Assembly: GCA_002733105.1 (NCBI GenBank)
Contig: NVUI01000002.1
Coordinates: 210,188 to 243,461, forward strand
Source of the DNA: Methylophaga sp.
GTDB lineage: Bacteria > Pseudomonadota > Gammaproteobacteria > Nitrosococcales > Methylophagaceae
Direction of reading: 5' to 3'
DNA: 33,274 nucleotides
Part shown: piece by piece, positions 11,085-28,419 of the stretch
Numbering within the stretch: the first letter of the stretch is position 1
Layout of the letters: every line of letters begins with the position of its first letter
Translations under genes and position numbers: made by a program
The notes under the pieces: model-generated
What the model saw: only the letters and a program-made list of their open reading frames with translations
Databases searched by the model: none
What the model was told of the DNA's origin: nothing

Positions 11085-11111
11085 TGTCGCATTTGTAACA
11101 TCTGTGAGACA
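11085..11111. promoter_or_regulatory. Inverted-repeat operator upstream of glcDEF
   Basis: TGTCGCA (11085-11091) and TGAGACA (11105-11111) form an inverted repeat with a 13-base spacer that contains TGTAACA. The same repeat with the same spacer occurs at 28177-28203 upstream of the PQQ dehydrogenase. On the minus strand an 18-base run (AAATGCGACACTTGTTTA) is shared exactly with that site. It lies about 130 bases before glcD. No sigma-54 -12 element is seen between it and glcD, so the controlled promoter is uncertain. Confidence 0.55.
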
Positions 11112-11241
11112 CAATTTATTTATCGTGACATTGTTAAAAAATGAACATAGTATTCCTTCCATATTTTATTTCACCTCTTAACATCTGGCGTTATTCATTT
11201 ACCAGATAAAGTGCTTTTTTATAAATTTGTATGGAATACAG

Positions 11242-12693
11242 ATGCAAAAATTCATTATCCGTTCGTTACAAAAAATAGTGACAAAAAAGAATGTGTTGCA
11301 GGAAAGGTGCGAATTAGTGCCTTATGAGTGTGATGCGTTGACTGCCTTTCGGGCGCTACCAATAGCGGTGGTGCTAGCTGAGACAGTTGAACAAATACAA
11401 GAAGTAATGTGCTTTTGCCAACAACATAAAATACCGGTGGTTTCTCGTGGTGCAGGTACAGGCCTTTCTGGAGGAGTATTACCTTGCGAAGATGGCATCG
11501 TATTAAGTCTGGCTAAATTCAATCGTATCATAGCTGTAGATCTACAAAACCGTACGGCAAGAGTTGAACCTGGTGTACGCAATATTTCTATCAGCCAAGC
11601 GGTAGAATCAGACAATCTTTATTATGCTCCGGATCCTTCCTCACAACTCGCCTGCACAATTGGTGGAAATGTTGCTGAAAATGCTGGCGGTGTACATTGC
11701 TTAAAATATGGGCTTACTGTCAACAATGTGCTTCAGGTGAAGATCGTAACCGCAAAGGGTGAATTAGTTACCTTGGGTAGTCAGGCTTTGGATGCGCCGG
11801 GGTATGATCTCCTTGCGGTAATAACGGGTTCAGAAGGTATGCTGGGTATCATTGTTGAAGTTACCGTTAAATTACTACCCATCCCTGAATGCACCAAAGT
11901 TCTCATGGTCACTTTTGATTCCGTTGCAAAAACGGGTGATGCCGTCACCAAAATCATTAGCAAAGGCATCATCCCAGCAGGACTTGAAATGATGGACAAT
12001 ATGACTATCCGTGCGGCCGAAGATTTTTTGCATATTGGTTATCCAATTGATGCTACTGCAATTCTTCTTTGTGAATTGGATGGTACGTTAGCTGAAGTCG
12101 AACAAGCAATAAATGAAGTCAGTTTATTGTGTAAAGAAGCAGGTGCGATTGAAATAAAATTGGCAAAAGATGAGGACGAACGCAAATTGTTTTGGGCGGG
12201 TCGTAAAGCAGCTTTTCCAGCAGTTGGCCGTATAAGTCCTGATTATTACTGCCTGGATGGCACGATTAAACGTAAATATTTAGCAGAAGTATTACAAAAA
12301 ATCGACAGCCTGTCAGATGAATATCAATTAAAAGTAGCCAATGTTTTTCATGCTGGTGATGGCAATTTACACCCTATGGTTTTGTACGATGCAAACAAAC
12401 CTGGAGAATTTGAACGAGTAGAAGAGCTGGGTGGAAAAATACTTGAACTATGCATCGCTGTCGGGGGAACCATAACGGGGGAGCACGGCGTAGGTGTAGA
12501 AAAACTCAATCATATGTGTCTGCAATTCAGCAGTGGTGAACTAGAACAGTTTCATGCGTTAAAAAGAGCCTTTGATCCCGATGGAATTCTCAACCCAGGG
12601 AAAGTTATCCCTACTTTACACCGCTGTGCCGAATTTGGCGCTATGCATGTGCATGATAACAAGCTTCCTCATCCTGACATTCCACGGTTTTAA
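11242..12693 (+). CDS. glcD: Glycolate oxidase, FAD-binding subunit
   Basis: GlcD is the flavoprotein subunit of the GlcDEF complex, which oxidises glycolate to glyoxylate and passes electrons towards the respiratory chain. The protein follows E. coli GlcD closely as recalled, including the FAD-binding RGAGTGLSGG, the segment YYAPDPSSQLACTIGGNVAENAGG, GLEMMDNMTIRAAEDF, FHAGDGNLHP, and GEHGVGVEKLN with a C-terminal PGKVIPTLHRCAEFGAMHVH. I chose ATG 11242 (MQKFIIRS) over an upstream TTG at 11227 because GGAA lies five bases before it. The product is 483 residues. It is followed after 8 bases by glcE and then glcF. D-lactate dehydrogenases of the same family lack this degree of match. Confidence 0.94.
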   Translation: MQKFIIRSLQKIVTKKNVLQERCELVPYECDALTAFRALPIAVVLAETVEQIQEVMCFCQQHKIPVVSRGAGTGLSGGVLPCEDGIVLSLAKFNRIIAVDLQNRTARVEPGVRNISISQAVESDNLYYAPDPSSQLACTIGGNVAENAGGVHCLKYGLTVNNVLQVKIVTAKGELVTLGSQALDAPGYDLLAVITGSEGMLGIIVEVTVKLLPIPECTKVLMVTFDSVAKTGDAVTKIISKGIIPAGLEMMDNMTIRAAEDFLHIGYPIDATAILLCELDGTLAEVEQAINEVSLLCKEAGAIEIKLAKDEDERKLFWAGRKAAFPAVGRISPDYYCLDGTIKRKYLAEVLQKIDSLSDEYQLKVANVFHAGDGNLHPMVLYDANKPGEFERVEELGGKILELCIAVGGTITGEHGVGVEKLNHMCLQFSSGELEQFHALKRAFDPDGILNPGKVIPTLHRCAEFGAMHVHDNKLPHPDIPRF

Positions 12694-12701
12694 TTTTAAA
12701 T

Positions 12702-13766
12702 ATGTTAAATTTAGATAACAGTAAACAGCTTGCTTTGATTGTTAACGATGCAATCAAAAATAAACAGCCATTAAAAATCTTCGGAGGAAATTCTAAATCC
12801 TTTTATGGCCCAAAGTCGAAGGGCGAACCTGTCTGTGTTGCAGAGCATTGTGGTGTCATTAACTACCAGCCCGAAGAACTGGTACTTACTGTTCGAGCAG
12901 GTACAACATTAAGCGAAATAGAATCCATACTGGCAGAACAAAATCAGAAGTTAATATTTGAACCACCCCATTTTGGTGCGAAAGCAACCATTGGAGGAGC
13001 AATTTCCTCAGATATAAATGGACCCAGCAGCCCCTGGTTTGGTAGCGTAAGAGACGCTGTTCTCGGTGTTAAAATCATCAACGGTCAAGGCGAGATACTC
13101 CACTTTGGAGGAGAGGTGATGAAAAATGTTGCCGGTTATGATGTCTCGAGATTGATGGTTGGCAGTATGGGAACACTGGGTCTTTTATTGGAAATTTCAC
13201 TCAGAATTTTACCTCTAGAAAAAAAAACAATCACCTTCCTGCTTGAAACAACGGAGGAAGAAGCAATACAACGTTGCAGCCAGCTAAACAGGCAGCATTT
13301 GCCTCTGTCAGCAATGGTTTATTATAACAACCTGCTATATATACGCTTGTCAGGTAATATTGCCAGCGTCAATTCTGCGTATAAAACATTGGGCGGTGAG
13401 TTACTGACAGACAACAATTTCTGGTATTCAATTCGAGAGCACACCCACCCGTTTTTTTATCAAACAGGAACACTATGGCGGATCTCTGTCCCGCCTGCCA
13501 CACCGCCAATAAACGATCTAGATGGTCATTGGCTGATCGATTGGGGCGGGGCACAACGTTGGTTTATCAGTGATATGGCAGCAGAAGTTGTGTATGCCAA
13601 AGTAGCAGATGTTCATGGCCACGCCACAATCTACCGCAACATTGATAGTATCGGTGACGTTTTCCACCCCTTAACAACATCACAAAGACATTTACACAAA
13701 ATGGTGAAACAGGCTTTCGATCCACACCGTATTTTTAATCCGGGACGTCTTTATGCAGACTTATGA
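12702..13766 (+). CDS. glcE: Glycolate oxidase, FAD-binding subunit GlcE
   Basis: GlcE is the second flavin-binding-fold subunit of glycolate oxidase, 354 residues, the usual length. Near the N-terminus is the FAD-binding stretch IFGGNSKSFYG. It is followed by GGAISSDINGPSSPWFGSVRDAV, GGEVMKNVAGYDVSRLMVGSMGTLG and a C-terminal FDPHRIFNPGRLY, all conserved in the family. It starts 8 bases after glcD and ends 10 bases before glcF, so the three are co-transcribed. It carries a shortened FAD-oxidase C-terminal domain compared with GlcD, as is normal for this subunit. Confidence 0.92.
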   Translation: MLNLDNSKQLALIVNDAIKNKQPLKIFGGNSKSFYGPKSKGEPVCVAEHCGVINYQPEELVLTVRAGTTLSEIESILAEQNQKLIFEPPHFGAKATIGGAISSDINGPSSPWFGSVRDAVLGVKIINGQGEILHFGGEVMKNVAGYDVSRLMVGSMGTLGLLLEISLRILPLEKKTITFLLETTEEEAIQRCSQLNRQHLPLSAMVYYNNLLYIRLSGNIASVNSAYKTLGGELLTDNNFWYSIREHTHPFFYQTGTLWRISVPPATPPINDLDGHWLIDWGGAQRWFISDMAAEVVYAKVADVHGHATIYRNIDSIGDVFHPLTTSQRHLHKMVKQAFDPHRIFNPGRLYADL

Positions 13767-13776
13767 GTAATTCTTG

Positions 13777-14988
13777 ATGGAATATAAAATTATAGCGTCG
13801 ATAAAAAAAACACCCCAAGGGAAGCAGGCGGAGGAAATTCTAAGTAAATGTGTACATTGCGGCATGTGTAACGCAACGTGCCCTACATACCAGCTGCTGG
13901 GGGATGAACTTGATGGCCCACGTGGCCGGATATATCAGATAAAACAAGTATTGGAAGGAGCCACTCCGACAAGAACAATGCAACTCCATCTTGATCGATG
14001 TCTGACTTGTCTAAGCTGTGAGACAACCTGTCCTTCTGGCGTTAAATACGGAAAACTAGCTGAGATAGGCAAACAGCTGATTGATGATAGCCTCCAACGT
14101 CCACTACATGAAAAGCTTTTTCGAAAAATTTTACGCATTATTCTACCTTACCCAAATCGATTGGGCCCTCTGGTGAGGATGGGTCAGATATGTCGACCCG
14201 TGTTACCTGCATTTTTGAAAAATAAAATACCTGAATTCCAAAATAAGCTTCGTTGGCCAGAAACAAAACATACTCGAACAATGTTGGTGCTCAATGGTTG
14301 CGCACAACCTGTTATGAGCCCGAACATAAACATGGCAACTGCCAATGTATTGGATAAACTAGGCATTAGTTTACTTTCAATTTCCAATAGTGGTTGCTGT
14401 GGTGCGGTTAGCCAGCATTTAGGAGCAGAGCATGAAGCAAAAAAATTCATGCGTGCAAACATTGACGCTTGGTGGCCCTACATTGAAAATGGTGCTGAGG
14501 CTATTGTAATAACAGCAAGTGGTTGCGGTACTGTGTTGAAAGACTACGGTCAATTGTTGGCTGATGATCCTGATTATTCACAAAAGGCATCTATCATTGC
14601 AACGCTTTCTCAAGATATTTCTGAAATATTGTCAACAGAGGATATGTCCAGATTGCATACACCGAACGAGAAACCAACTCTGGCTTTCCAGTCACCCTGT
14701 AGTTTGCAACATAGCCAACAATTAAGCGGTGTAGTTGAAAAAATATTAACCGATTTTGGCTATCGTTTAACGACGGTGAAGGATGCCCATCTATGCTGTG
14801 GTTCAGCAGGTACATATTCCCTGCTTCAATCAAATATTTCAAATCAACTTAAAGTTAATAAACTGAAAACTCTCGAAGAAGAGCAGCCTGAACTAATCGC
14901 CACTGCCAATATTGGCTGCCTTCATCATTTACAATCAGGCACCGATATTCCCGTTCAACACTGGATAGAAATTATTGATCGAATGTGA
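13777..14988 (+). CDS. glcF: Glycolate oxidase, iron-sulfur subunit
   Basis: GlcF carries electrons from the flavin subunits through two [4Fe-4S] clusters. The N-terminal motifs are CVHCGMCNATCPTY and CLTCLSCETTCPSG. Two CCG (heterodisulfide-reductase-like) domains follow, with SGCCGAVSQHLGAEHEA and LCCGSAGTYSLLQ. The product is 403 residues, as expected. I prefer ATG 13777 to the TTG one codon earlier; the ribosome site is poor, so translation may depend on coupling with glcE, whose stop is 10 bases upstream. It is the last gene of glcDEF. A 280-base regulatory gap then leads to the aldehyde dehydrogenase. Confidence 0.93.
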   Translation: MEYKIIASIKKTPQGKQAEEILSKCVHCGMCNATCPTYQLLGDELDGPRGRIYQIKQVLEGATPTRTMQLHLDRCLTCLSCETTCPSGVKYGKLAEIGKQLIDDSLQRPLHEKLFRKILRIILPYPNRLGPLVRMGQICRPVLPAFLKNKIPEFQNKLRWPETKHTRTMLVLNGCAQPVMSPNINMATANVLDKLGISLLSISNSGCCGAVSQHLGAEHEAKKFMRANIDAWWPYIENGAEAIVITASGCGTVLKDYGQLLADDPDYSQKASIIATLSQDISEILSTEDMSRLHTPNEKPTLAFQSPCSLQHSQQLSGVVEKILTDFGYRLTTVKDAHLCCGSAGTYSLLQSNISNQLKVNKLKTLEEEQPELIATANIGCLHHLQSGTDIPVQHWIEIIDRM

Positions 14989-15020
14989 TCTTACTATGAA
15001 CAATTTATCTTTTATGTTTA

Positions 15021-15048
15021 TGTAACACGTTGTTGCAACACCTGTAAC
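15021..15048. promoter_or_regulatory. Candidate activator site upstream of the aldehyde dehydrogenase
   Basis: TGTAAC occurs twice in direct orientation (15021-15026 and 15043-15048), 22 bases apart, around the perfect palindrome TGTTGCAACA (15031-15040). It lies about 165-190 bases upstream of the -24 element. The TGTAACA word also occurs in the glcD operator spacer, and an inverted TGTTACA occurs near the porin promoter, so the same activator may bind. Confidence 0.4.
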
Positions 15049-15211
15049 TGAAAATGTACACGGTGACCAATAAATCTATATTTTTTAATCTATTTTCATA
15101 CCTGTTCATTTTATATTTAACAAAAAATAATAATATTAAAATCAGTTCATTCAATAAGTTATTTAAACAACTCAGTTTAAAAAAACTGCTATTTTAGTAT
15201 CGCTATTTCAT

Positions 15212-15227
15212 TGGCATATTCTTTGCT
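15212..15227 (+). promoter_or_regulatory. Sigma-54 promoter (-24/-12) of the aldehyde dehydrogenase gene
   Basis: TGGCAT-ATTCT-TTGC-T matches the sigma-54 consensus with GG and GC 12 bases apart. It is 41 bases before the ATG at 15269. The flanks closely resemble the promoter at 28404 (shared TGGCATATT). Together with the repeats at 15021-15048 this gives a standard enhancer-promoter layout. Confidence 0.82.
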
Positions 15228-15268
15228 TTTTTAGTATTTTCAGCCCGAAATTTATGGAGATATAATTT

Positions 15269-16774
15269 ATGAATGCAAATGTAGAAGATATGACTGGCCG
15301 AGATGAAGTAGCGCAGTTTCTTGCTCAAGAAACAATACCGATGTTTATTAATGGTCAGTGGATATCACCAGAGGGTGTGAACACAATTGATGTTGTCAAT
15401 CCATCAAATGCTGAAAAGCTCACCCAAATCTATGCCGGCAATTCAATGCAAGTGTATCAAGCATGCCAAGCCGCACACCAAGCATTTGAAACATCTGGTT
15501 GGGCAACAATGCCAGTAACAGAAAGATCAGCGATATTGATGAAACTCGCAGATTTAATTGAGGAAAATGCAGCAGTACTAGGCAAGCTTGAGTCACTTGA
15601 TGTAGGAAAACCTCTCGCCGGTGTTGTTGATGGTGAAATACCCTTCTCAGGCCAATCATTTCGCTTTTTTGCACAAGTAGCGCTTGATTATGATAAATAC
15701 AGCACGCCATTAGATGCTGAAAACATTCAGGCACATTATGTTCGCAAGCCTTATGGTGTTTGTGGCTTTATCTTTCCATGGAATTTTCCATTTTTATTAT
15801 TGGCATGGGGCGCTTCAGCTGCTCTGGCTGCCGGCAATACCATTGTTATAAAACCAGCTGAGTTAACGTCATTGAGTTCATTATATTTTTGTAAGCTGGC
15901 CAAAGAAGCAGGTATTCCTGATGGTGTAATAAACGTGATCACCGGATACGGTTCAGAAGCAGGCATGCCTATCGCAGAACATCCACTGGTTCGCAGGATG
16001 TCATTCACCGGTTCACCTGAAGTAGGTCGTAAAATCGCTGAAACCTGTGCCCGTAATTTGATTCCAATCAAACTGGAATTGGGTGGCAAAGGTGCTGCCA
16101 TCATTTTTGATGATGTTGATGTGAAAGCAACCGCCGCAAGTCTGGCAGAAATAATAACCTCCAATACTGGCCAAGTTTGTTGTACTGCGTCACGTTGGTT
16201 GGTCCACAAAAATATTTACGATGAGTTCACTCGCGAAGTAAGCCAAGTGTTAAAAAATACTGTTATCGGCAACAGTAATGACGCGAACACTCAGATGGGA
16301 CCCATCGTCAGCGAAGTCCAACGTCAACGGATCCTGGATTACCAGAAAAAAGGCTTAGCACAAAATGCCACGGCGCTGGTTGAGGGCCAGATATTTGCTC
16401 CCGAAGGCTCTGAAGATGGTTTTTATCTTACACCGTCTTTACTTCAAGGAAGCAGTGATAATATTTGCTTTCAGGAAGAAATTTTCGGTCCATCTGCATA
16501 TATGGTGTCATTTAGTGATGAAGATGAAGCTATTGATTTGGTCAATAGCTCAGATTATGGTTTGGCCAATAGTGTATGGACTCAGGATCTAGAACGCGCC
16601 AAAAGAGTAGCCGAGAAGATGATTGTGGGCAATTGCTGGATCAACGCTCACAATGTTTTTGCCTACGGCTTGCCTTATGGCGGGGTCAATCTAAGCGGTA
16701 TGGGTGGTGGCGTTAATAGCGTTGAAACCTTTGAAGATTACTTAAGAGGCCAAACAGTGGCTCGCCCCTTGTAA
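15269..16774 (+). CDS. NAD(P)-dependent aldehyde dehydrogenase
   Basis: A 501-residue cytoplasmic class-3-fold aldehyde dehydrogenase that oxidises an aldehyde to its acid. Catalytic Glu270 is in LELGGKG and the nucleophile is Cys304 in GQVCCTASR; their 34-residue spacing is standard. The cofactor region includes FIFPWNFPFLL, KPAELTSLS and SFTGSPEVG, and the C-terminus has the usual PYGGVNLSGMG. Ribosome site GGAG lies before the ATG. The gene is monocistronic, behind a sigma-54 promoter and ahead of a hairpin. Genes of this type are typical AcoR-family targets in alcohol metabolism. Here it would oxidise the aldehyde from the PQQ alcohol dehydrogenase at 28523. The chain length of the substrate cannot be told; a betaine- or aromatic-aldehyde role is possible but not suggested by the neighbours. 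Confidence 0.9.
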   Translation: MNANVEDMTGRDEVAQFLAQETIPMFINGQWISPEGVNTIDVVNPSNAEKLTQIYAGNSMQVYQACQAAHQAFETSGWATMPVTERSAILMKLADLIEENAAVLGKLESLDVGKPLAGVVDGEIPFSGQSFRFFAQVALDYDKYSTPLDAENIQAHYVRKPYGVCGFIFPWNFPFLLLAWGASAALAAGNTIVIKPAELTSLSSLYFCKLAKEAGIPDGVINVITGYGSEAGMPIAEHPLVRRMSFTGSPEVGRKIAETCARNLIPIKLELGGKGAAIIFDDVDVKATAASLAEIITSNTGQVCCTASRWLVHKNIYDEFTREVSQVLKNTVIGNSNDANTQMGPIVSEVQRQRILDYQKKGLAQNATALVEGQIFAPEGSEDGFYLTPSLLQGSSDNICFQEEIFGPSAYMVSFSDEDEAIDLVNSSDYGLANSVWTQDLERAKRVAEKMIVGNCWINAHNVFAYGLPYGGVNLSGMGGGVNSVETFEDYLRGQTVARPL

Positions 16775-16869
16775 GAAAGCAATCGTTCACCGTCACTCCG
16801 GTTTATGCAGGCTAAACCGATTCTGCTCCTATGATTGCAGCCTGATAATAAGTAATTTTTACACTTTCT

Positions 16870-16894
16870 GTGGCCACTTTTAACAAGTGGCCAC
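16870..16894 (+). terminator. Hairpin after the aldehyde dehydrogenase gene
   Basis: GTGGCCACTT (16870-16879) and AAGTGGCCAC (16885-16894) form a perfect 10-base-pair stem with a 5-base loop, followed by TTTAATTAA. It separates the aldehyde dehydrogenase from the PEP synthase gene. Confidence 0.65.
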
Positions 16895-16933
16895 TTTAAT
16901 TAAGCAGATTATAAAAAGTTGGTTTCTTAAAAA

Positions 16934-19324
16934 ATGAATAAATATGTCATCCCTTTAGAGCAATTGAACAAAAATGACCTCAATCTCGTTGGTGGAAAAA
17001 ATGCATCCTTGGGAGAAATGATCGCCAATCTATCTTCTGCCAATGTGCGTGTACCCGGCGGTTTTGCAACCACCACAAATGTCTATTGGGATTTTCTTCG
17101 TCAGACAGGTTTAGAACAAAAAATTCAACTTATAATGTCTGAACTTGATATTACCGATATCAATGCCTTAAATAAAGCCAGTCAATCAATACAAAAATTG
17201 ATTGTTGAAACGCCCTTTTCTAAAGCTATTGAAACGGCGATACGTCAGGCATTTTCTTATATGATTAAACAATATGGGGGTGATGGTCTGGCTGTGGCAG
17301 TACGATCGTCAGCCACAGCCGAAGATCTCCCCGATGCTTCTTTTGCCGGACAACAAGAAACCTTTTTAAATGTCAGTGGCATTGACAATGTATTAACCAA
17401 AATCAAAGCCGTATTTGCATCCCTCTATAATGCCAGAGCCATTAGCTATCGGGTTCATCAAGGCTTTGCCCATGAACAGATTGCTATTTCAGCGGGCGTA
17501 CAACAGATGGTTCGAAGTAATCTAGCCACCAGTGGGGTTATGTTTACATTGGATACGGAATCTGGATTTCGCGATGTGGTATTTATTACTGCCAATTATG
17601 GCCTGGGAGAAACAATCGTCCAGGGTGCAGTCAACCCCGATGAGTTTTACGTCTATAAAAAAAGTCTAGCTAATAATTTACCCGCTATTTTAAGACGAAA
17701 CATGGGTAGCAAAGAAATACGAATGGTCTATGAGCACCAGCCAGAGCGGCAAGGAGTAACCATAGAAGATGTGCCCTTGGCCATGAGGAATAAGTTCTGC
17801 CTTGCTGACAATGAAATATTAGAATTGTCACGTATAGCTATGGCAATCGAGGCCCATTATCAACAGGCAATGGATATTGAATGGGCTAAGGATGGACATG
17901 ATGGTAAGTTATATATCGTCCAAGCCAGACCTGAAACAGTGAAAAATAAATCTGAGCGAATTCTGACTCAATACCATCTGAAGGAGAAAGCTGATGTCAT
18001 CATCACCGGCAGAAGCATAGGTCAAAAAATTGGAGCCGGTAAAGCTAGAATTATCGCACGGCTTGAAGATATGGATAAGCTGCAAGATGGCGAAATACTG
18101 GTGACTGATATGACGGATCCTGACTGGGAACCTGTCATGAAGCGAGCGTCAGCTATCGTAACCAACCGCGGTGGAAGAACATGCCATGCCGCCATCATTG
18201 CAAGAGAGTTAGGCGTACCTGCTGTTGTTGGCTGTGGCAATGCCACAACACTGATAAAAATGGGGGCCCCAATAACGGTGTCTTGCTCGGAAGGCGATAC
18301 TGGCTTTATTTATAATGCCGAATTACCATTTACTATAGATAAAATCCAACTTGATGAGATGCCGGATAAGCCCGTTAAGATCATGCTTAACGTGGGCAAC
18401 CCTGATCGTGCTTTTTCCTTTTCCTCCATGCCCAATGATGGCGTGGGGCTCGCTCGACTGGAGTTCATTATCAATCGCATGATCGGCATTCATCCTCAGG
18501 CCTTACTGGAATACGATGGCTTATCAGCCAAGCTAAAAAACATAATAAATTCAAAAATCCACGGCTATAAAAGCCCCATCGATTTTTATGTCGATAAATT
18601 AACCGAAGGCATAGCAACCATAGCAGCTGCGTTTAATCCTAAGCCTGTTATTGTGCGTTTATCAGACTTTAAATCGAATGAATATGCCAATTTGATTGGT
18701 GGCAATTTATATGAACCTGATGAAGAGAATCCTATGCTGGGATTCCGTGGCGCATCACGATATGTATCTGCAACATTCAAGGCCTGTTTTGAACTTGAAT
18801 GCAAAGCCATTAAAAAAGTACGCGATGATATGGGCTTAACAAATGTACAGCTCATGATCCCTTTTGTACGTCGCGTACCCGAGGCCGAGCAAGTGATCAC
18901 ACTGCTTAAAGAAAATGGCCTAACTCGGGGGGTCAACGATCTTAAAATTATCATGATGTGTGAAATACCTTCCAATGCCTTATTAGCTGATAAATTTTTA
19001 GAAAATTTTGATGGGTTTTCTATTGGTTCCAATGATATGACACAGTTAACGTTGGCCATGGATCGCGACTCAGGTCTGATCGCTGAAAATTTTGATGAGC
19101 GGGATCCTGCCGTTAAGATAATGTTAAAAATGGCTATCAATGCTTGCCAAAAGGCTAACAAATACGTTGGTATTTGTGGCCAAGGACCGTCAGATCACCC
19201 AGATTTAGCCGAATGGTTGGTAGAGCAAAACATCGAAAGTATTTCTCTTAATCCTGACACAGTGATTGAAACTTGGCTAGCCCTGTCCCAAGTATCTGCC
19301 GATGATAACGTCAGGCTCGATTGA
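16934..19324 (+). CDS. ppsA: Phosphoenolpyruvate synthase
   Basis: This 796-residue enzyme converts pyruvate, ATP and water to PEP, AMP and phosphate, the entry to gluconeogenesis from C3 acids. The N-terminal ATP-grasp part has [39 protein letters not shown] and IVQARPETV. The central swivelling domain has [18 protein letters not shown] with phosphohistidine His418. The C-terminal PEP-binding barrel has [36 protein letters not shown] and catalytic Cys748 in GICGQGPSD. Length matches PpsA (about 790); pyruvate phosphate dikinase would be about 870-900. The ribosome site is weak. It fits the neighbours because lactate oxidation and methylcitrate cleavage both yield pyruvate. Confidence 0.95.
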
Positions 19325-19377
19325 GCTCTCATGTTTTTCATTATTGAATCTGATGAAACTGAGTTGAGTTGTCTTAA

Positions 19378-20310: not shown

Positions 20311-20326
20311 ATAAAGGAAATTAACC

Positions 20327-21223: not shown

Positions 21224-21539
21224 TAAGCCATAATAAAACAGTGAAAAGGTGGGCATTAAAATTAAGCAAAAAATGATACACAACTGTCACATCAAAAGTG
21301 TAGCAATTCATATACACTTTGCGTATCAATATTAAATATCAAAATATTTTTTAATTATTACTAACAGGAAATTAGATGCTAACCTACTGTTTTGCATGAA
21401 TATACCCAACTACTCATGTCTCATCCCTTGATGATTCATATTGGCTTAGTAACGATGGAATAGATTTTGCTTTTCCTACTTTTCAAGGATGAAAAAACTG
21501 AGTTTTTAATAATAATATTTAACACAAATGGGGAAATTT
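21224..21539. other. Intergenic region upstream of the AmiS/UreI gene
   Basis: About 315 AT-rich bases. It contains a TGTCTCA half-site (21417-21423), a weak sigma-54 candidate (21456-21471) and the pair TGTCACA (21285 region) / GTGTAGC (21298 region). No gene or strong terminator for the preceding SMP-30-like gene is seen. Confidence 0.4.
21456..21471 (+). promoter_or_regulatory. Possible sigma-54 promoter of the AmiS/UreI gene
   Basis: TGGAAT-AGATT-TTGC-T keeps the invariant GG and GC at the right spacing but departs from TGGCAC at the -24 side. It is 69 bases before the ATG at 21540. A TGTCTCA half-site lies 33 bases upstream, closer than a normal enhancer. The call is weaker than for 15212 and 28404. 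Confidence 0.4.
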
Positions 21540-22034
21540 ATGAGTGATGCAATACTTGTTTTGTATGCTGCAGTTCTTGTTGTAAATGGCTGCTTTCTAT
21601 TGGGTAAAGTTGAAGCTAAATCAGTTTGGCCGGTGAATGTTATAGTGGGTGTGATTGCTATCATCTGCTCAATTTATATGGGGCTAACAGGTTCAGCTTT
21701 TGTAGCAACATTGCTATTACTTTTTGCAGTAGTCTTTGTCATAATGGGGATTAATCTTGCTTCTGGCTTAGAAGGTAAGTCAATGGGATACTACTGCCTT
21801 TTTGGTGTTCCCGTCTGTTTGATATGGGCCTATACATTCTATATCTCACTAGGCGCAGTAACGTTCGGTGTCTTTTCTGTCCTTTGGGCTGTTTTGTTCG
21901 GACTTTTTTCCGGAATATTAGCCTTTGGTAAGGAAAAGTGGGCTGGACCTACAGGTTATTATTGTTTTGCCATTGCTTTCTTTACCTTGCTTATCCCTGC
22001 CAGCCTTTCATTTAATGGTATTCCATTGCCATAA
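21540..22034 (+). CDS. AmiS/UreI-family small-solute channel
   Basis: A 164-residue inner-membrane protein with six hydrophobic segments, matching the AmiS/UreI family of urea and short-chain amide channels. The first segment reads LVLYAAVLVVNGCFLLGKVEAK, and the family-like loops LASGLEGKSMGYYCLFG and FGKEKWAGPTGYYCF are present. I chose ATG 21540 rather than 21528 because GGGGAAA falls between them at the right distance for 21540. No urease or amidase gene is nearby, so the solute is open. Family members pass small neutral molecules (urea, acetamide). A link to short alcohols or amides is only suggested by a weak sigma-54 promoter. It is a single gene, convergent with the lactate operon. 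Confidence 0.8.
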   Translation: MSDAILVLYAAVLVVNGCFLLGKVEAKSVWPVNVIVGVIAIICSIYMGLTGSAFVATLLLLFAVVFVIMGINLASGLEGKSMGYYCLFGVPVCLIWAYTFYISLGAVTFGVFSVLWAVLFGLFSGILAFGKEKWAGPTGYYCFAIAFFTLLIPASLSFNGIPLP

Positions 22035-22086
22035 ATACCGTGCTCTTGCTGACTTTTCACCGACCGATTGGTCAGTACTAGAACTG

Positions 22087-22137
22087 AGCCCCACATAACT
22101 TATAACGACCTAGGTTCAAACTATGTTATGTGGGGCT
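22087..22137. terminator. Two-way terminator between convergent genes
   Basis: AGCCCCACATAAC (22087-22099) and GTTATGTGGGGCT (22125-22137) form a perfect 13-base-pair stem with a 25-base loop. It lies between the AmiS/UreI stop and the end of lutC, so it can end transcripts from both sides. Confidence 0.75.
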
Positions 22138-22142
22138 TATCT

Positions 22143-22799
22143 TCAATGATTTTTGACAATGATCACATGTAAACTTTTAGGTCCATGTGCCCCAATCTGG
22201 ATCTCATACTCTATATCTGCAGTGCGACTTGGCCCCGTGATTAAATTTATTGTTCTGGGCAACGGCTCTCCACTTTTGCTAAGTTGTGCCCACACATCTT
22301 CCATGGTTTTAACAACCTTATCGGCGTCTAATACAATAAAATGATGATCAGGCAAGAAATTCATTCCGGTTGGCGATGAGGGTGATGAAAGCATGACCAA
22401 GGCGCCCGTTTCTTCTATTCCCATAACAGCAAAAGTAACACTGGTAGACAGTGCTTTTGGATTATATTGTGTTGTAGTATCAACACCTTCCCAATCCAGT
22501 GAGGGAAAGTCAGTATGTTGGGCGACCGTAATCACTGAACTAATTTGATGTTGGCTGACATATTTATGTACTTCGGTAATGATGTCTCTTTTATGGCTCA
22601 CCACCGAAACGGTCGCTTTGGCCTGTTCCAATTTAGAAATAAAAACGTCTAGGTTGGAAACATATTTAATTTCTGTAGATTTATTTTTCTTCATTCTTGA
22701 CCTTAAAATATTATCTTTATGAGAATATTCATCTGATTTTGTTGCAGAACGAATTTTTTGCAGAATGACTCTTTTTGATTCTTTGTTTTGCTCATCCAT
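22143..22799 (-). CDS. lutC: L-lactate utilization protein C (LUD domain)
   Basis: LutC/LldG is the small LUD-domain subunit of the LutABC lactate oxidase, 218 residues from the chosen start. I use the ATG at 22799 (MDEQNKES), not the frame's first start at 22865, because AAGGA precedes it and it overlaps the lutB stop by only 8 bases. The C-terminal half carries the LUD features GVDTTTQYNPKALSTSVTFAVMGIEETGALVM, SPTGMNFLPDHHFIVLD and ITGPSRTADIE, close to the family pattern. The N-terminal part is variable, as usual. It is the last gene of lctP-lutABC and reads into the hairpin at 22087-22137. Confidence 0.9.
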   Translation of the reverse strand: MDEQNKESKRVILQKIRSATKSDEYSHKDNILRSRMKKNKSTEIKYVSNLDVFISKLEQAKATVSVVSHKRDIITEVHKYVSQHQISSVITVAQHTDFPSLDWEGVDTTTQYNPKALSTSVTFAVMGIEETGALVMLSSPSSPTGMNFLPDHHFIVLDADKVVKTMEDVWAQLSKSGEPLPRTINLITGPSRTADIEYEIQIGAHGPKSLHVIIVKNH

Positions 22800-24219
22800 G
22801 ATGATCCTTTTTATATTTTTTCCATTGGGAATGAAATGTGCTTCCTTGAGGAGAAGGAAAATCACGTGATTGTGTCCAACTACGGGCTAACAGTAGCTTG
22901 TTAAAACGTCCTTTTTTTGCCCCCAAGAAGCTAAGTAATCGAATGCCGATATTAACTAGAAAATGATAAACAACGGGATAACTGGCTAGCTTGCCCCACA
23001 ACTGGATACCCCCTCTCCAAATCATTGAGCCTTTCCGTTCCTTGAACTGTCTGACACGTAATAATCGCAGTAGTTTTGGTAATGGAATTTTAACCGGGCA
23101 CACTGTTTCGCAGCGGCCATTTAGAGTACAAGCATTAGGTAGATCACCCGCTTCTTCAAGACCGATAATGGCGGGCGTTAGTACCGCTCCCATCGGGCCA
23201 GGATAGACCCAACCATAAGCATGGCCACCCACTGAACCATAGACTGGACAGTGATTTATACACGCGCCGCAGCGAATACAACGTAACATTTCGCTGAGTT
23301 CACTATTTAACAAATCAGTACGACCATTATCAATCAACACAATATGCATTTCTTCAGGTCCATCTTGATCATCACTACGCTGAGGACCAGTAGCAAATGT
23401 AGTATAAGCCGTAGACTCTTGTCCGGTCGCACTGCGAGCCAGTAAACGACTCAACATGGAAACATCATTTAGTGTGGGAACAATTTTTTCCAGACCTGCT
23501 GTAACAATATGCACTTTGGGTAAAGTACTGCATAAATCACCATTGCCTTCATTAGTCACAATGACACTTGTTCCTGTTTCCGCCACCAGAAAATTGGCAC
23601 CTGTTATGCCTATATCAGCATTCAGAAATTTAGAACGCATAATTTCTCGTACTTGTAAAACTAATTCTTCAACTTCTGTTAAGGGTTTATCGTAACCGTA
23701 CTTCTTATGATGCTTTGCAAAGAGTTCAATTATTTGTGCACGCGTTTTATGCACACATGGAACAATGATATGACTGGGAGGTTCATTCGCTAATTGAACG
23801 ATATACTCACCCAGATCTGTTTCGATAGGTTCAATGCCTGCTGCTTCCAAAGCTTCATTAATGCTGATTTCTTCACCGGCCATTGACTTGCCTTTGACAA
23901 CCGTTTTTGCATTATGTTTATGACAAATACCAACAATAATTTGTTGTGCTTCACTTGCATCTTTAGCCCAGTGAAGTTGCCCTCCTTGTGCGGTAAAGTT
24001 TGTCTCAAATTCTTCTAGATAATAATCAAGCTGAGATAATGTATGCTGTTTTATCTGTTTGGCTTTTTCTCTCAATAATTCAAAATCAGAGACTAAACTT
24101 ATAGCCTTAGCACGATTCTCTACCAATCCTTTTTTAACGGTAAATAATGATTTTTGTAGTTCCGGATCAGCTAATGCCTTGGTAACGTTGGATTTAAATT
24201 GTTTTGAATGTGGCTGCAT
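22792..24219 (-). CDS. lutB: L-lactate utilization iron-sulfur protein B
   Basis: LutB/LldF is the central subunit of the non-flavin lactate oxidation complex, about 475 residues. An N-terminal LUD-like domain (KGKSMAGEEISINEALE, LANEPPSHIIVP, FLVAETGTSVIVTNEGNGD) is followed by two Fe-S motifs, CIRCGACINHCPVY and CTLNGRCETVCPVKIPL. I choose ATG 24219 (MQPHSKQF), with GGAG 11 bases before it, over a TTG at 24246 inside lutA. It overlaps the next gene, lutC, by 8 bases, so translation is probably coupled. With LutA and LutC it oxidises L-lactate to pyruvate on the cytoplasmic side of the membrane. Confidence 0.93.
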   Translation of the reverse strand: MQPHSKQFKSNVTKALADPELQKSLFTVKKGLVENRAKAISLVSDFELLREKAKQIKQHTLSQLDYYLEEFETNFTAQGGQLHWAKDASEAQQIIVGICHKHNAKTVVKGKSMAGEEISINEALEAAGIEPIETDLGEYIVQLANEPPSHIIVPCVHKTRAQIIELFAKHHKKYGYDKPLTEVEELVLQVREIMRSKFLNADIGITGANFLVAETGTSVIVTNEGNGDLCSTLPKVHIVTAGLEKIVPTLNDVSMLSRLLARSATGQESTAYTTFATGPQRSDDQDGPEEMHIVLIDNGRTDLLNSELSEMLRCIRCGACINHCPVYGSVGGHAYGWVYPGPMGAVLTPAIIGLEEAGDLPNACTLNGRCETVCPVKIPLPKLLRLLRVRQFKERKGSMIWRGGIQLWGKLASYPVVYHFLVNIGIRLLSFLGAKKGRFNKLLLARSWTQSRDFPSPQGSTFHSQWKKYKKDHHG

Positions 24220-24226
24220 TAGATAA

Positions 24227-24991
24227 TTAACTCCATTTCTCACCAATAGCAGGATACTCAGCAGCCATGCCAGCCAAGACTTCGACAGTATGGTAAAAAC
24301 GGACTGCTTTCCCTTCTCGCTGACATCGTCCAGCGATATTCATTAGACATCCAAGATCGCCAGCTAAAACAACCTTAGCATCAACATCAATAATGTTTTT
24401 TACTTTATCGCTGACAAGGCTGGTTGATATATCAGGATACTTCACACAAAAAGTGCCACCAAATCCACAACAGATATCGGTATCTTTCATTTCTTTCAAC
24501 TTGAGTCCCTTGACCTTATTCAGCAACTGCCGAGGTTGAGATTCAATGCCTAATTCACGCAAGCCTGAGCAGCTATCATGGTATGTCACCGTGGAATCAA
24601 ACCGTGCGGATATTTCAATTTTTAACACATCATGTAGAAAAGTCAGAATTTCGTAACATTTATTTGAAAGCTTTTCTACCTTTTCTAAATAGTGAGGTTC
24701 ATCCTGAAAAAGTTCAGGATAATGAACTTTTATCATGCCAAGACATGAAGCTGATGGTGCAACCAGAAAATCATATTGTTCAAATACATCGATAACCTGC
24801 CGAGCAATATTTTTTGCCGTATCAATATCACCATTGTTAAAGGCGGGTTGACCACAACATACTTGTGCACTAGGAACGGTTACATCACACCCTGCTGATT
24901 CCAGTAGTTTTATCGATGCAAGTGCGATACTTGGACGCATAGCATCAACAAGGCATGTAACAAAGAAACCAATTTTTAATGTTTCACTCAT
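24227..24991 (-). CDS. lutA: L-lactate utilization protein A (CCG domains)
   Basis: LutA/LldE is a 254-residue protein with two CCG domains, PSAQVCCGQPAFNNGD near residue 40 and DICCGFGGTFCVKYPDIS near residue 175, which in this family bind Fe-S clusters. The start MSETLKIGFFVTCLVD is typical of the family. It begins 8 bases after the lactate permease gene and ends 8 bases before the lutB start, so permease and oxidase are one operon. In E. coli the comparable genes are ykgEFG and in Bacillus lutABC. There is no FAD-dependent LldD in the window. Confidence 0.93.
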   Translation of the reverse strand: MSETLKIGFFVTCLVDAMRPSIALASIKLLESAGCDVTVPSAQVCCGQPAFNNGDIDTAKNIARQVIDVFEQYDFLVAPSASCLGMIKVHYPELFQDEPHYLEKVEKLSNKCYEILTFLHDVLKIEISARFDSTVTYHDSCSGLRELGIESQPRQLLNKVKGLKLKEMKDTDICCGFGGTFCVKYPDISTSLVSDKVKNIIDVDAKVVLAGDLGCLMNIAGRCQREGKAVRFYHTVEVLAGMAAEYPAIGEKWS

Positions 24992-24999
24992 TTAAATAA

Positions 25000-26667
25000 T
25001 TACCCTGACCAAAATACAAAAAGCCAACCAATAATCCCAGCCATCAATAAATAATATGCCGTTGGTATCATCGTCTTACGAATAAGATTTCCTTCTTGAC
25101 CAATAAGCCCACAAGTTGCTGATGCTGCAACAACGTTATGTATACAGATCATATTTCCGGCTGCTCCACCAATGGCTTGTAAAGCAACAAGAAAAATCGG
25201 CGATAAATGGGTCTTAATACCAATATCAAACTGAAATAGTGAAAAGGTCATATTGCTGATCGTATTACTACCAGCAACAAACGCACCAAAAGCACCTATC
25301 ACTGCCGCAAACATGGGCCATGTCACCCCAGCAACGTCGGCCACTGCCTGTGCAAGTTCGATAGGCATACTGCTTAATCCAGAATTATTGTCTTGTGTTT
25401 GCAGCATGATCCGCACTAACGGAACGGAAAAAACTAACACTGGAACCGCTTTTAACAATGAGCTAAAACTATCCTTCAATATAAAAGCAGATTGTTGAAT
25501 TGATATTTTATAATAAGGGATACAGAGCGCCACAGTGGCCAGAAATAGCGTTCCAGGCAACAATAAAGGCTTAATATTAATACTGATATTCGTTCCCAGT
25601 ATATTTTCAAACGGCATTACAACTGATGAAAGTAAACTACTGAAGGGTAAAAATGGCAGGCGAGCAAGAACCAATAATAGGGTGACAATGACATAGGGCA
25701 TAATGGCTGCAAATAATGATTTTCGCTTTGGCTGTGTTTGTATTTTTTCAAACCGTGCATTACCTATCCAGTCTTTATGCCACTGTTTTTTATCTGGGAA
25801 ACGCCAAATATTTTTCGGTTGTAGAAAGCCCATATGAGCAGAGAGACTGGTAATGACAAGGGCAATTAAACCAGCGAATAATGAGGGGAATTCCGGCCCT
25901 AGAAACACACCAAATAAAACATAAGGAATGGTAAAACAAAGCCCAGAAAACAAAGCAAAAGGATAAACTTCCAATCCTTCTTTCCATGATCTATTGGTAC
26001 CAAAAAATCGCGTGACTAGGGCAACCACAAACAAAGGAATAAGCGTGCCAATAATACCGTGCAATATGGCAACTTGTGCACCAATTTGGAAAACCAGATC
26101 ACTTACATCACCGATCGAAGCGGTCGTACTCACATAGGTCTCGACCACTTGACTACCCGATAATCCGGTCTGGACACCAATTAAGATAGGCGTGCCCATT
26201 GCGCCAAAAGAGACTGCTGTGCTTTGAATGATTAATGTTGCCATCACAGCGGCCATGGCAGGAAAGCCTAACAACATCAAAAGTGGTGCTGCAACTGCTG
26301 CAGGTGTTCCAAAACCGGAAGCACCTTCAATAAAGGAGCCAAAAGACCATGCAATAATGAGCACCTGTATGCGTGGATCTGGCGTTATCGCTTTAAATTT
26401 ATCGCGTATTACCAGAACCAAACCGGTATGAAATAACATATACAAAAGCGTTAAAGCACCAAAAACAATATAAAGTATCTGCCCCGCAATAAGTAAACCT
26501 TCAATACTGGCAGCCACTATTCTTATGCCGGACATCTGCCAATAGAAATAACTCTCAACAACGGTGATTAAAAATGCCAACGGCATCACTCGACTAGCAG
26601 GCCACTTAAAAACGACGAGTAAAATAAGCACCAGTAAAAGAGGGAAAATTGAAAGAAAAGCGATCAT
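25000..26667 (-). CDS. lctP: L-lactate permease (LctP/LldP family)
   Basis: A 555-residue inner-membrane carrier with about 12-14 hydrophobic segments that imports lactate (and often glycolate) with protons. Family motifs are WSFGSFIEGASGFGTPAAVAAP around residue 110, STAVSFGAMGTPI around residue 155, GAFGAFVAGSNTISNMTFSLFQ and AIGGAAGNMICIHNVVAASATCGL near the end. Length matches LldP (about 550). It is the first gene of lctP-lutABC and divergent from the SHOCT gene. A candidate sigma-54 element and a pair of TGAGACA repeats lie upstream. Because LctP proteins often carry glycolate too, it may also feed the GlcDEF oxidase encoded 10 kb away. Confidence 0.94.
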   Translation of the reverse strand: MIAFLSIFPLLLVLILLVVFKWPASRVMPLAFLITVVESYFYWQMSGIRIVAASIEGLLIAGQILYIVFGALTLLYMLFHTGLVLVIRDKFKAITPDPRIQVLIIAWSFGSFIEGASGFGTPAAVAAPLLMLLGFPAMAAVMATLIIQSTAVSFGAMGTPILIGVQTGLSGSQVVETYVSTTASIGDVSDLVFQIGAQVAILHGIIGTLIPLFVVALVTRFFGTNRSWKEGLEVYPFALFSGLCFTIPYVLFGVFLGPEFPSLFAGLIALVITSLSAHMGFLQPKNIWRFPDKKQWHKDWIGNARFEKIQTQPKRKSLFAAIMPYVIVTLLLVLARLPFLPFSSLLSSVVMPFENILGTNISINIKPLLLPGTLFLATVALCIPYYKISIQQSAFILKDSFSSLLKAVPVLVFSVPLVRIMLQTQDNNSGLSSMPIELAQAVADVAGVTWPMFAAVIGAFGAFVAGSNTISNMTFSLFQFDIGIKTHLSPIFLVALQAIGGAAGNMICIHNVVAASATCGLIGQEGNLIRKTMIPTAYYLLMAGIIGWLFVFWSG

Positions 26668-26699
26668 AAATTTTTAACCGTGAAGGAATTAGGTGTTAA

Positions 26700-26715
26700 T
26701 GCAAAAGATATACCA
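26700..26715 (-). promoter_or_regulatory. Possible sigma-54 promoter of lctP-lutABC
   Basis: On the minus strand the sequence is TGGTAT-ATCTT-TTGC-A. It keeps GG and GC 12 bases apart and a full TTGC, but has T in place of C at the fourth position. It is about 33 bases before the lctP start, so the leader would be very short. Confidence 0.5.
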
Positions 26716-26854
26716 ACCATTAGAACAGATTATTTTCAATCTATTTCAACCCCAAAAAACTGCTATCCATCTAATAATACTAACAATTTTTTCATATTTT
26801 AAGATAGCATGAGAACCTGTTCCAAATTAATTTCAGCAAATATTCTCAATTTTA

Positions 26855-26882
26855 TGAGACAGATGTTCAGTTAAATGAGACA
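26855..26882. promoter_or_regulatory. Direct repeats of TGAGACA upstream of lctP
   Basis: TGAGACA occurs at 26855-26861 and 26876-26882, 21 bases apart (two helical turns). It is the same heptamer that forms one arm of the glcD operator. The pair lies about 140-165 bases upstream of the lctP -24 candidate, a normal enhancer distance. Confidence 0.5.
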
Positions 26883-27001
26883 GTCAATATATTCCTTTTT
26901 ACAAGCCCTTCTTTTAGTTTCCCAAACAAGATAGTTTGTAAAAATGTTCCAATCCATATTAGTATTAAACTTCAGTCATAACACTGATCACTAAAATTTT
27001 T

Positions 27002-28033
27002 ATGGAGATGCCTAAAAAAATGATGTCCTCAACCAGTAACTTAAATCGCCTTGTCATTAGCCTGTTTTTATTGCTTATTTATCTGCCAGCTAATGCGGCG
27101 ATAAAAGAGAATATAGTTTGGCAAGGAAACTATGATTATGTGGCAATAGTCCCTACAGAAAGAGCAAATCAACCGCCAAACAACCACCCTATCCAACTGA
27201 GTCCTCAAGATATTTATAACTTATTAGGCAGTATTCGCTTATCTGATCAAGACAACAGTTTTTTTAATCTTGATTTTTTCAGTTCCGACTCTGAAGATAT
27301 CGAACAATATCAGTTTGATAACCAAGTAGCGGCGTCAGCTGATGCATTATTTAACCCTAAAGAACTACGTAAAATTAGTGTGCCGATTTCAAAAGCCTTT
27401 GCAGGCTTAACATCAAGTCAAGATATTGTATTCAGCGTTTCCGGCTCTCATAGTGGTAGTTTTGGCAAAAGCACTAGAACCACAACTGCCCGTATTTTTT
27501 ATCAAGATCACCAATTACATCTGATCTTCGGTGAAGTCTTAGTAGACATTAAAAAGAAATACCTGCGAAAAGGGCTGTCATCTGATGTGCCCGAAAAAAT
27601 TGAAGACCATGACTTAAAGAATTTTAGATTAAAAATAGGATCTCGTACCGAAGCATCAAGCCATATCATGGTTTTACGTACCGATAATATGCATCGCTTA
27701 AATGTACGCCAACGTAAAACAAGAACGGACTGGCTCATCATTGATACCGCTCTTTTTATGGCTGCAATGGAACAACATAAAGTCACAGAAAAAACTAGCC
27801 ATGTCATTGCTGAAGAAACGGATGCACTGCAATCACAAACACAGCAACTTGCTCAAGAACAGCAGAAGTTGATCCAAAAAGTTGCAGATTTAGAAGAAGG
27901 AAAGGTGCAAGAACATGAGCCCAACCAAACACTAGAGCAGCGCCTGAGACAGCTTAAACAGTTACATGAACAAAATGTCATCAGTGATGAAATTTATAAT
28001 GAAAAAATGAGATCACTGCTCGACGAACTGTAA
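27002..28033 (+). CDS. Exported protein with C-terminal SHOCT motif, function unknown
   Basis: A protein of up to 343 residues with a signal peptide (hydrophobic LVISLFLLLIYLPANAA, cleavage near residue 33). The middle (about 40-260) is rich in predicted beta-strand, with ISVPISKAFAGLTSSQDIVFSVSGSHSG and LRLKIGSRTEASSH-like segments and no domain I recognise. A Gln/Glu-rich coiled coil follows (about 268-318). The C-terminus is a SHOCT-type motif (LEQRLRQLKQLHEQNVISDEIYNEKMRSLLDEL, with the typical leucine pattern and a Gly-less turn). SHOCT motifs are linked to oligomer formation. Starts at 27002, 27008 and 27020 are possible; GGAG at 27005-27008 favours 27020. It stands alone, divergent from lctP and followed by a hairpin. 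It is probably periplasmic or lipid-free envelope-associated. Confidence 0.6.
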   Translation: MEMPKKMMSSTSNLNRLVISLFLLLIYLPANAAIKENIVWQGNYDYVAIVPTERANQPPNNHPIQLSPQDIYNLLGSIRLSDQDNSFFNLDFFSSDSEDIEQYQFDNQVAASADALFNPKELRKISVPISKAFAGLTSSQDIVFSVSGSHSGSFGKSTRTTTARIFYQDHQLHLIFGEVLVDIKKKYLRKGLSSDVPEKIEDHDLKNFRLKIGSRTEASSHIMVLRTDNMHRLNVRQRKTRTDWLIIDTALFMAAMEQHKVTEKTSHVIAEETDALQSQTQQLAQEQQKLIQKVADLEEGKVQEHEPNQTLEQRLRQLKQLHEQNVISDEIYNEKMRSLLDEL

Positions 28034-28043
28034 AAACATAACT

Positions 28044-28075
28044 CACACCATTTCCGCTGACGTGGGGGTGGTGTG
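28044..28075 (+). terminator. Hairpin after the SHOCT gene
   Basis: CACACCA (28044-28050) pairs with TGGTGTG (28069-28075), and the stem extends inward with TTTCC facing GGGGG-type pairs. GGGCTTATTTT follows. It lies 11 bases after the SHOCT stop. Confidence 0.5.
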
Positions 28076-28176
28076 GGCTTATTTTCCCACCCGTAATCTC
28101 TCATCCCTTGCGCAAACTCACTAAAATAAATAACATCGGCCAACAATACCCAGAACAAAAAACCACTGCTAAGGTT

Positions 28177-28213
28177 TGTCTCAGGGGTGAGTTAAATGCG
28201 ACACTTGTTTATT
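28177..28213. promoter_or_regulatory. Inverted-repeat operator upstream of the PQQ dehydrogenase
   Basis: TGTCTCA (28177-28183) and TGCGACA (28197-28203) form an inverted repeat with a 13-base spacer, identical in layout to the site at 11085-11111. The right arm extends into CTTGTTTATT, and AAATGCGACACTTGTTTA is shared exactly (inverted) with the glcD site. It is centred about 214 bases upstream of the -24 element, as expected for an enhancer. Confidence 0.6.
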
Positions 28214-28403: not shown

Positions 28404-28419
28404 TGGCATATTACTTGCT
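28404..28419 (+). promoter_or_regulatory. Sigma-54 promoter (-24/-12) of the PQQ dehydrogenase gene
   Basis: TGGCAT-ATTAC-TTGC-T matches the consensus with correct spacing and is almost the same as the promoter at 15212. It gives a leader of about 90 bases before the ATG at 28523. A palindrome sits 11 bases upstream. Confidence 0.82.

Follow-up and report, generated by a model that had tools for sequence, protein, structure and literature searches.

Which regulator recognizes the palindromic element TGTCKCA-N13-TGMGACA, copies of which lie near glcD and near the gene of a pyrroloquinoline quinone (PQQ)-dependent alcohol dehydrogenase in a Methylophaga sp.? The stretch in question, referred to here as the window, comprises 33,274 bases, of which 3,901 (11.7%) are noncoding, and holds 25 genes, 18 of which were scanned against family models. 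It belongs to a genome assembly (G000) of 2.06 Mb in 22 contigs with an estimated completeness of 82.5%. An earlier reading of the sequence (the original prediction) had placed two full palindromes with a 13-base spacer in the window and proposed them as the binding site of one regulator, an "AcoR-type" protein encoded at 6986-8929. As set out below, the motif very likely represents the upstream activating sequence (UAS), or enhancer, of this sigma-54-dependent activator, as judged from sequence and its conservation, and the 27-base palindrome is itself probably composite.

The shared motif set in the window was confirmed to be real. Both palindromes were located exactly as predicted, at 11085-11111 and 28177-28203, and they are the only exact copies in G000, where about 0.05 copies per 2.06 Mb are expected from a first-order Markov model of the window (3 matches in 120 Mb simulated) and the reversed control pattern yields none. 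The two copies indeed share an inverted run of 18 bases, TAAACAAGTGTCGCATTT, found at 11077 on the plus strand and as its reverse complement at 28194, and the half-sites anticipated at 10767, 26855, 26876 and 21417 are all present. When the K and M positions were left free and the spacer was varied from 0 to 30, 5 places were found in G000, including the two window palindromes, versus 2 for the reversed control. The TGMGACA half-site occurs 14 times in the window against 7.4 expected, a count attained by 0 of 100 shuffles; eight of these occurrences are noncoding (binomial P = 5.6e-5). Among 1,260 letter-permuted motif pairs, the motif alone attained 8 noncoding occurrences, and the runners-up, with 5, either contain TGAGACA too or differ from the motif by a one-base shift. 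The claim that all sites are noncoding held for the copies originally named and failed for the six remaining half-sites, which lie within genes (7805, 11379, 14019, 24001, 27945, and 28644), and for the single additional palindrome that appears in G000 when one mismatch is allowed, inside glcF. That copy reads TGTCTGA-N13-TGAGACA and occupies 13999-14025.

The motif also tracks the proposed activator, as had been anticipated. Among the 29 genomes of the genus, the exact palindrome and the activator (E<=1e-100) each occur in one, G000 in both cases; at the same threshold none of the other 62 genomes searched in the order yielded the activator, many of the genomes being incomplete. With the activator absent from the 28 genus relatives, the cluster may have come in from outside the genus. 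Within the class, where the best three candidates per genome were scored, the activator was found at E<=1e-120 in 17 of 369 genomes, namely, G000, one relative from this sample (G258, 64% identity), and 15 others at 36-40%. The PQQ dehydrogenase was found at E<=1e-200 in exactly two, G000 and G258 (87%), and it co-occurs with the activator (at the E<=1e-150 level) in these same two genomes. In G258, which was compared over 73 kb and is the sole source of a close activator homologue, the exact palindrome occurs once (C8:59752-59778), with both arms present, upstream of the same PQQ dehydrogenase. A one-mismatch search of G258 gave no further copy (reversed control, 2 forward matches and 1 reverse), and half-sites lie at 62149 ahead of an aldehyde dehydrogenase gene and at 65170 ahead of the activator gene. 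The family and order of G258 are represented by three genomes, one with the activator; the other two carry one one-mismatch palindrome each. At the 15 distant activator loci (L038-L052, up to 1.5 kb on each side), no palindrome with a spacer of 5-25 was found, only scattered half-sites. A wider contig search with the activator returned only two Bacteroidota loci, at 40-41% over partial length, from a collection that may omit near relatives, and 53 plasmid records with PQQ dehydrogenases were all below 60% identity (best among 10 listed, 41.7%).

Candidate sigma-54 promoters were scored on both strands for -24/-12 elements using rough, self-chosen weights (maximum, 22.8). The predicted association of the motif with such promoters was borne out, as all three window matches scoring at least 21 are noncoding, as are five of the eight scoring at least 19.8, each preceding a gene. 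The five are TGGCATATTACTTGCT for the PQQ dehydrogenase (28404..28419, plus strand, 21.8), TGGCATATTCTTTGCT for an aldehyde dehydrogenase (15212..15227, plus strand, 21.8), TGGCAAAGTTATTGCT for a porin-like gene (10575..10590, minus strand, 21.3), TGGTATATCTTTTGCA for the lactate permease gene lctP (26700..26715, minus strand, 19.8), and TGGAATAGATTTTGCT for an AmiS/UreI gene (21456..21471, plus strand, 19.8). All begin about 50-120 bp ahead of a start codon and are directed at the gene.

A Gibbs search, which by design assigns one site per region, was run on nine regions upstream of sigma-54 matches, five from the window and four from G258. The regions were picked by hand and consisted of the five noncoding window matches and four G258 matches beside homologues of window genes, one of these degenerate (TGGCAAAAACATTACT, 18.3); other G258 sigma-54 matches were left out, as was glcD, because it has no promoter. 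The search returned TGCGACAnnTGTTTA-like sites at -154 to -219 of the sigma-54 matches, with a score of 116.0 versus a mean of 95.2 (standard deviation, 2.2; maximum, 102.9) for 180 Markov controls, with 120 iterations and 8 restarts for real and control sets alike. A shallower control of 60 iterations and 6 restarts was under-searched (real score, 91.5; 118 of 139 controls at or above it), and on their own, in a shallower run whose motif was not read out, the five window regions reached 67.7, with 66.2 as the highest of 139 controls. Seven of the nine sites are clear or fair; the two poor ones belong to the aldehyde dehydrogenase of G000 and the porin of G258. These sites point to a 15-base imperfect palindrome, TGCGACA-N2-TGTTTA, as the probable functional unit; its core, ACA-N2-TGT, is suggestive of one dimer bound per unit. 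Each window palindrome has one TGCGACA arm and one TGAGACA arm, and the 27-base element is probably two 15-base units placed back to back and facing apart.

Matrices built in one genome recovered sites in the other. A matrix from three G258 sites ranked three window positions at the top, with the next match at 11.7 bits: a strong putative operator upstream of the PQQ dehydrogenase (TGCGACACTTGTTTA, 28197..28211, plus strand, 20.4 bits), an equally strong one between the porin gene and glcD (11077..11091, minus strand, 20.4 bits), and TGCGACAATTGTTTA upstream of the porin gene and possibly also of the activator gene, acoR (10767..10781, plus strand, 19.7 bits). The second arms, both TGAGACA, lie at 28177..28183 (minus strand) for the PQQ dehydrogenase pair and, with flank, at 11105..11119 (plus strand) for the 11085 palindrome. 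Conversely, a matrix from four window sites ranked G258 positions 65170, upstream of acoR, first and 59744, upstream of the PQQ dehydrogenase, third within the 73 kb. In alignments of G000 and G258 upstream regions, the best piece was the operator in two of four pairs, namely, the PQQ dehydrogenase pair (15/16 bp, E = 0.015) and the pair of G000 porin with G258 activator, in which the TGCGACAATTGTTTA site is identical over 16/16 bp in opposite orientation (E = 1e-4). It was the promoter element in the other two (16/17 bp for the aldehyde dehydrogenases and 17/18 bp for the porins); the remaining aligned pieces were weaker (E = 0.02 to 0.94).

Further candidate operators precede the other promoter matches. 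Upstream of lctP, TGAGACAGATGTTCA (26855..26869, plus strand, 17.1 bits) opens a direct pair with a spacing of 21 bp, completed by a TGAGACA at 26876..26882 (plus strand). Distances from putative operator to promoter match are about 145-230 bp for the PQQ dehydrogenase, porin and lctP genes. Weak candidates followed by -24/-12 elements are found for AmiS/UreI (TGTGACAGTTGTGTA, 21277..21291, minus strand, 13.5 bits, or 10.7 with the G258-derived matrix, at -179 from the promoter match) and, in degenerate form, for the aldehyde dehydrogenase (Gibbs site TGCAACAACGTGTTA, 15023..15037, minus strand, at -189), which may be a target that the original prediction overlooked. The half-site at 21417 exists as described, and was rejected as the AmiS/UreI operator: it lies 33 bp from the promoter match, and the weaker match at 21277 is better placed.

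The operator was also evaluated against sigma-54-like sites elsewhere in the genome. TGGCA-N6-TTGCW has 27 matches in G000 against 6 for its reversed control, and 24 of these are outside the window. The best 15-base score between -320 and -40 of the outside matches was 7.8 bits, compared with 24.4 for the PQQ dehydrogenase and 23.1 for the porin by the same scoring; therefore, the operator is not general to sigma-54-like sites in G000.

That the same activator instead reads the whole 27-base TGTCKCA-N13-TGMGACA as its unit, with halves two helical turns apart and the TGTTTA flank incidental, is a less probable arrangement that nevertheless deserves some weight. Three exact copies with a spacer of 13 are known (two in G000 and one in G258), the search of G000 with spacers of 0 to 30 revealed no other spacing in the cluster, and the lctP pair, at 21 bp, is also about two turns apart. 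Against this, the flanked sites at 10767 in G000 and 65170 in G258 stand singly, with no second arm, and TGTTTA is kept between the genomes there. A Fis-type dimer usually covers about one helical turn, which likewise counts against a 27-base unit.

The assignment of the 15-base operator to the local activator rests in part on the protein itself. The 647-residue product of 6986..8929 (minus strand) carries a sigma-54 AAA+ domain (PF00158 Sigma54_activat, 2.8e-63, above cut-off) and a Fis-type helix-turn-helix (HTH; PF02954 HTH_8, 6.3e-8, 32.7 bits versus a cut-off of 22), preceded by a GAF/PAS-like N terminus. The last matches PAS_9 below cut-off and resembles the DhaR structure 4lrx (E = 1.7e-4); a Pfam search of the protein gave no GAF match, and we infer a GAF domain from the DhaR likeness together with the sub-cut-off PAS match. 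The label "AcoR-type" proved loose. No AcoR model is among the best 25 of 27 NCBIfam matches, and the sole near-full-length model among those listed is DhaR (residues 23-642), at 271.8 bits well below its cut-off of 551 and not as an equivalog. The protein thus resembles AcoR and DhaR in its AAA+ domain, Fis HTH and DhaR-like N terminus and differs in context, as no aco genes, acetoin dehydrogenase or dihydroxyacetone kinase were found among the 18 window genes scanned.

The recognition helix, ICRATVYRKINKY, is identical in the G000 and G258 activators and does not occur in four other enhancer-binding proteins of G000 that were compared at their ends and are presumably NtrC- and PilR-like. This bears on a second alternative, that the operator is genuine and shared and is bound by a different protein, whether another enhancer-binding protein or an ordinary repressor or activator. 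G000 has 11 PF00158 matches, 10 above cut-off, and the helix comparison covered 5 of the 11, leaving out L073 (165 bits), L075, L077, L079, L081 (above cut-off), and L083 (below); the glcD operator, with no sigma-54 promoter, is what an ordinary regulator might be expected to use. We nonetheless consider this improbable, since the four other proteins compared have different helices, the motif and the 6986-8929 activator occur in the same genomes, in G258 an operator precedes the activator gene as well, and the distance of the sites upstream of -24/-12 matches suits an enhancer better than a repressor. The original assignment to a single local regulator is thus supported, with the binding unit more likely the 15-base element than the palindrome.

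Several observations weigh against the proposed enhancer of this activator. The lctP site has its 17.1 bits from a matrix that contains it and falls outside the top 15 of the G258-derived matrix; the best 15-base score in the G000 aldehyde dehydrogenase promoter region is only 4.4 bits, and the corresponding G258 site is outside the top 12 of the window-derived matrix. glcD has a strong operator and no recognizable sigma-54 promoter (best, 14.1 of 22.8), and the G258 porin promoter is without an exact half-site. The second-ranked G258 match of the window-derived matrix (41011, 19.7 bits) lies within an aceF-like coding gene, which we take to encode a dihydrolipoamide acetyltransferase-like protein; it was rejected as an operator and is taken as chance. 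Exact TGMGACA occurs at -320 to -40 of 2 of the 24 outside matches (L013 and L021), and half-sites alone are therefore not specific. Some of the nine Gibbs regions are orthologous pairs, so the regions are not independent, and one informative relative, G258, was found. A gammaproteobacterial enhancer-binding protein, L073, lies outside the helix comparison. The consensus for integration host factor (IHF) is absent from all seven operator-promoter intervals scanned, and an IHF site as a looping aid was rejected (window total, 7 versus 5.8 expected). Lastly, the sigma-54 contact loop is GTFTGA in G000 and GTFTGG in G258 rather than GAFTGA; variants including GAFTGG and GSFTGA are described for activators of Desulfovibrio vulgaris in the excerpt available of PMC4641369.

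Chance matches, or repeats that reflect the base composition of AT-rich intergenic DNA, can be set aside as scarcely credible: there is no palindrome excess at up to three mismatches (6 versus 3.9 expected; 16 of 100 shuffles attain 6) and six half-sites are intragenic, but the Markov, Gibbs, permutation and outside-promoter controls and the conserved position in G258 all speak against it.

For the enhancer reading, we infer the following series of events. A Fis-type HTH dimer would bind each 15-base unit, and paired units would let dimers assemble into an AAA+ ring, which would loop to the RNA polymerase-sigma-54 complex downstream; ligand binding by the N-terminal sensor would then cause the ring to open the promoter. 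The targets would be the PQQ alcohol dehydrogenase-cytochrome c genes, the porin gene and the lactate permease-LutABC genes, probably joined by AmiS/UreI and the aldehyde dehydrogenase and possibly by glcDEF, together providing a route from alcohol through aldehyde and lactate to pyruvate. In G000 the activator gene follows the porin gene on the same strand and may also be under the porin operator; in G258 the same operator stands directly ahead of the activator gene, and positive autoregulation is suggested. An inverted repeat with 12-base arms (CCCCTCCACACA / TGTGTGGAGGGG) is present at 9177-9201, between the porin and activator genes, with no minus-strand T-run.

The target genes were evaluated for their likely substrate. 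The enzyme at 28523..30280 (plus strand) belongs to the PQQ-dependent methanol/ethanol family (TIGR03075, 558.1 bits versus a cut-off of 480.05), and its closest Protein Data Bank entries are 6zcv and 6zcw, which we take to be PedH; it keeps their Asp-x-Asp stretch (PYDYDG versus GWDFDG), a feature associated with lanthanide use. The aldehyde dehydrogenase (15269..16774, plus strand; Pfam Aldedh, 4.1e-148; 79% to G258) reached the cut-off of none of the NCBIfam aldehyde dehydrogenase models listed, with 274.4 versus 650 for the lactaldehyde model. LctP (25000..26667, minus strand) is above the TIGR00795 cut-off and is followed downstream by lutA, lutB and lutC, of which LutB is above the TIGR00273 cut-off and the lutA and lutC labels are assumed. 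GlcF is above its NCBIfam cut-off, and GlcD falls slightly short (549.2 versus 567.9). The product of 9233..10489 (minus strand) has no Pfam match and a G258 homologue at 55.8%, and is provisionally labeled an outer-membrane porin-like protein.

In G258, the cluster lies on one contig in a different gene order, with homologues of the aldehyde dehydrogenase (79%), cytochrome (63%), porin, GlcD (61%), an SMP-30-like protein (71%), and LutC (51%), and a D-lactate dehydrogenase gene (Lact-deh-memb, 2.5e-131) sits between the two dehydrogenase genes. The two clusters carry different lactate-oxidizing enzymes, which points to a substrate whose breakdown ends in lactate. The gene content would suit a small alcohol or diol, with 1,2-propanediol as the simplest case and ethanol, 1-propanol or ethylene glycol as possible alternatives; we hold this less firmly than the binding unit. 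The lut genes of G258 appear reduced (L054:1147-2227), with lutC present, lutA in two short pieces and lutB unmatched in the 73 kb.

More tentatively, and with somewhat less than even confidence, the cluster could be a self-contained sigma-54 alcohol-to-lactate module. A single activator of GAF-AAA-Fis type, acting at an operator not described before (TGCGACA-N2-TGTTTA), would then control both a PQQ alcohol dehydrogenase of the lanthanide type and the uptake and oxidation of lactate. The activator, its operators and the key genes would travel jointly between distant members of the class while gene order and the lactate-oxidizing enzyme change (LutABC/GlcDEF in G000 and D-lactate dehydrogenase in G258). 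Systems of this kind are familiar; what is new, as far as searches of open PubMed Central papers show, is the operator sequence, the regulon and the module, and those searches gave no known operator matching the motif. The analysis offers a concrete operator for an uncharacterized sigma-54 activator with a regulon predicted from sequence. If true, PQQ alcohol dehydrogenase and lactate genes would be jointly under an AAA+ activator, and the operator and its activator could be put to use in sensing alcohols or diols.

Several described systems share parts of this arrangement, as far as the excerpts available of the sources cited show. BmoR of Thauera butanivorans is an alcohol-responsive activator with an inverted-repeat UAS 193 bp upstream of the PBMO -24/-12 elements (PMC8899819). 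It is alike as an alcohol-responsive enhancer-binding protein with a distant UAS and differs in controlling an alkane monooxygenase. At PBMO, the response reportedly stayed like that of the wild type after the putative repeat was removed, and a region resembling an IHF site had the greatest effect (PMC8899819). exaA of Azospirillum brasilense Sp7 likewise places a PQQ alcohol dehydrogenase under sigma-54, but with a LuxR-type regulator rather than an AAA+ enhancer-binding protein (PMC6115532). The Pseudomonas ped cluster (PedE/PedH), to which the link is the nearest solved structures, 6zcv/6zcw, is regulated by PedR1/AgmR and PedS2-PedR2 (PMC13390443); in these two sources, PQQ dehydrogenases are under LuxR-type or two-component control (PMC13390443, PMC6115532). 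In D. vulgaris, enhancer-binding proteins (DVU3023 and others) control lactate metabolism and transport genes, and some sites precede operons without a sigma-54 promoter, like glcD here; these regulators differ as two-component response regulators of a sulfate reducer, with most promoters <100 nucleotides from the site (PMC4641369). As of 2015, according to the excerpt of that source, sigma-54 control of pyruvate/lactate genes had not been described outside Desulfovibrio (PMC4641369). Clostridial regulators of alcohol metabolism (AdhR and others) use TGT/ACA inverted-repeat operators 10-12 bp apart (PMC6615313), whereas the core here is ACA-N2-TGT inside TGCGACA-N2-TGTTTA.

Beyond the proposed regulon, the genes at 122-6728 form an unusual mix of an HpcH/HpaI lyase, a MaoC/mesaconyl-CoA hydratase-like protein, a second lyase and methylcitrate-cycle-like genes. 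Four of the six labels have a Pfam or NCBIfam basis, and the other two are our assumption. This run was rejected as a regulon member: the best sigma-54 score in the 121 upstream bases within the window is 13.8, and no operator there is among the window top 30. For Cycloclasticus, an excerpt links the use of short alkanes to a PQQ dehydrogenase and to methylcitrate enzymes (PMC12510462), and the methylcitrate-type genes would fit a similar use here. Two further window proteins with no Pfam match (27002-28033 and 31238-32002) are kept beside the G258 dehydrogenase cluster, at 48% and 51%, respectively.

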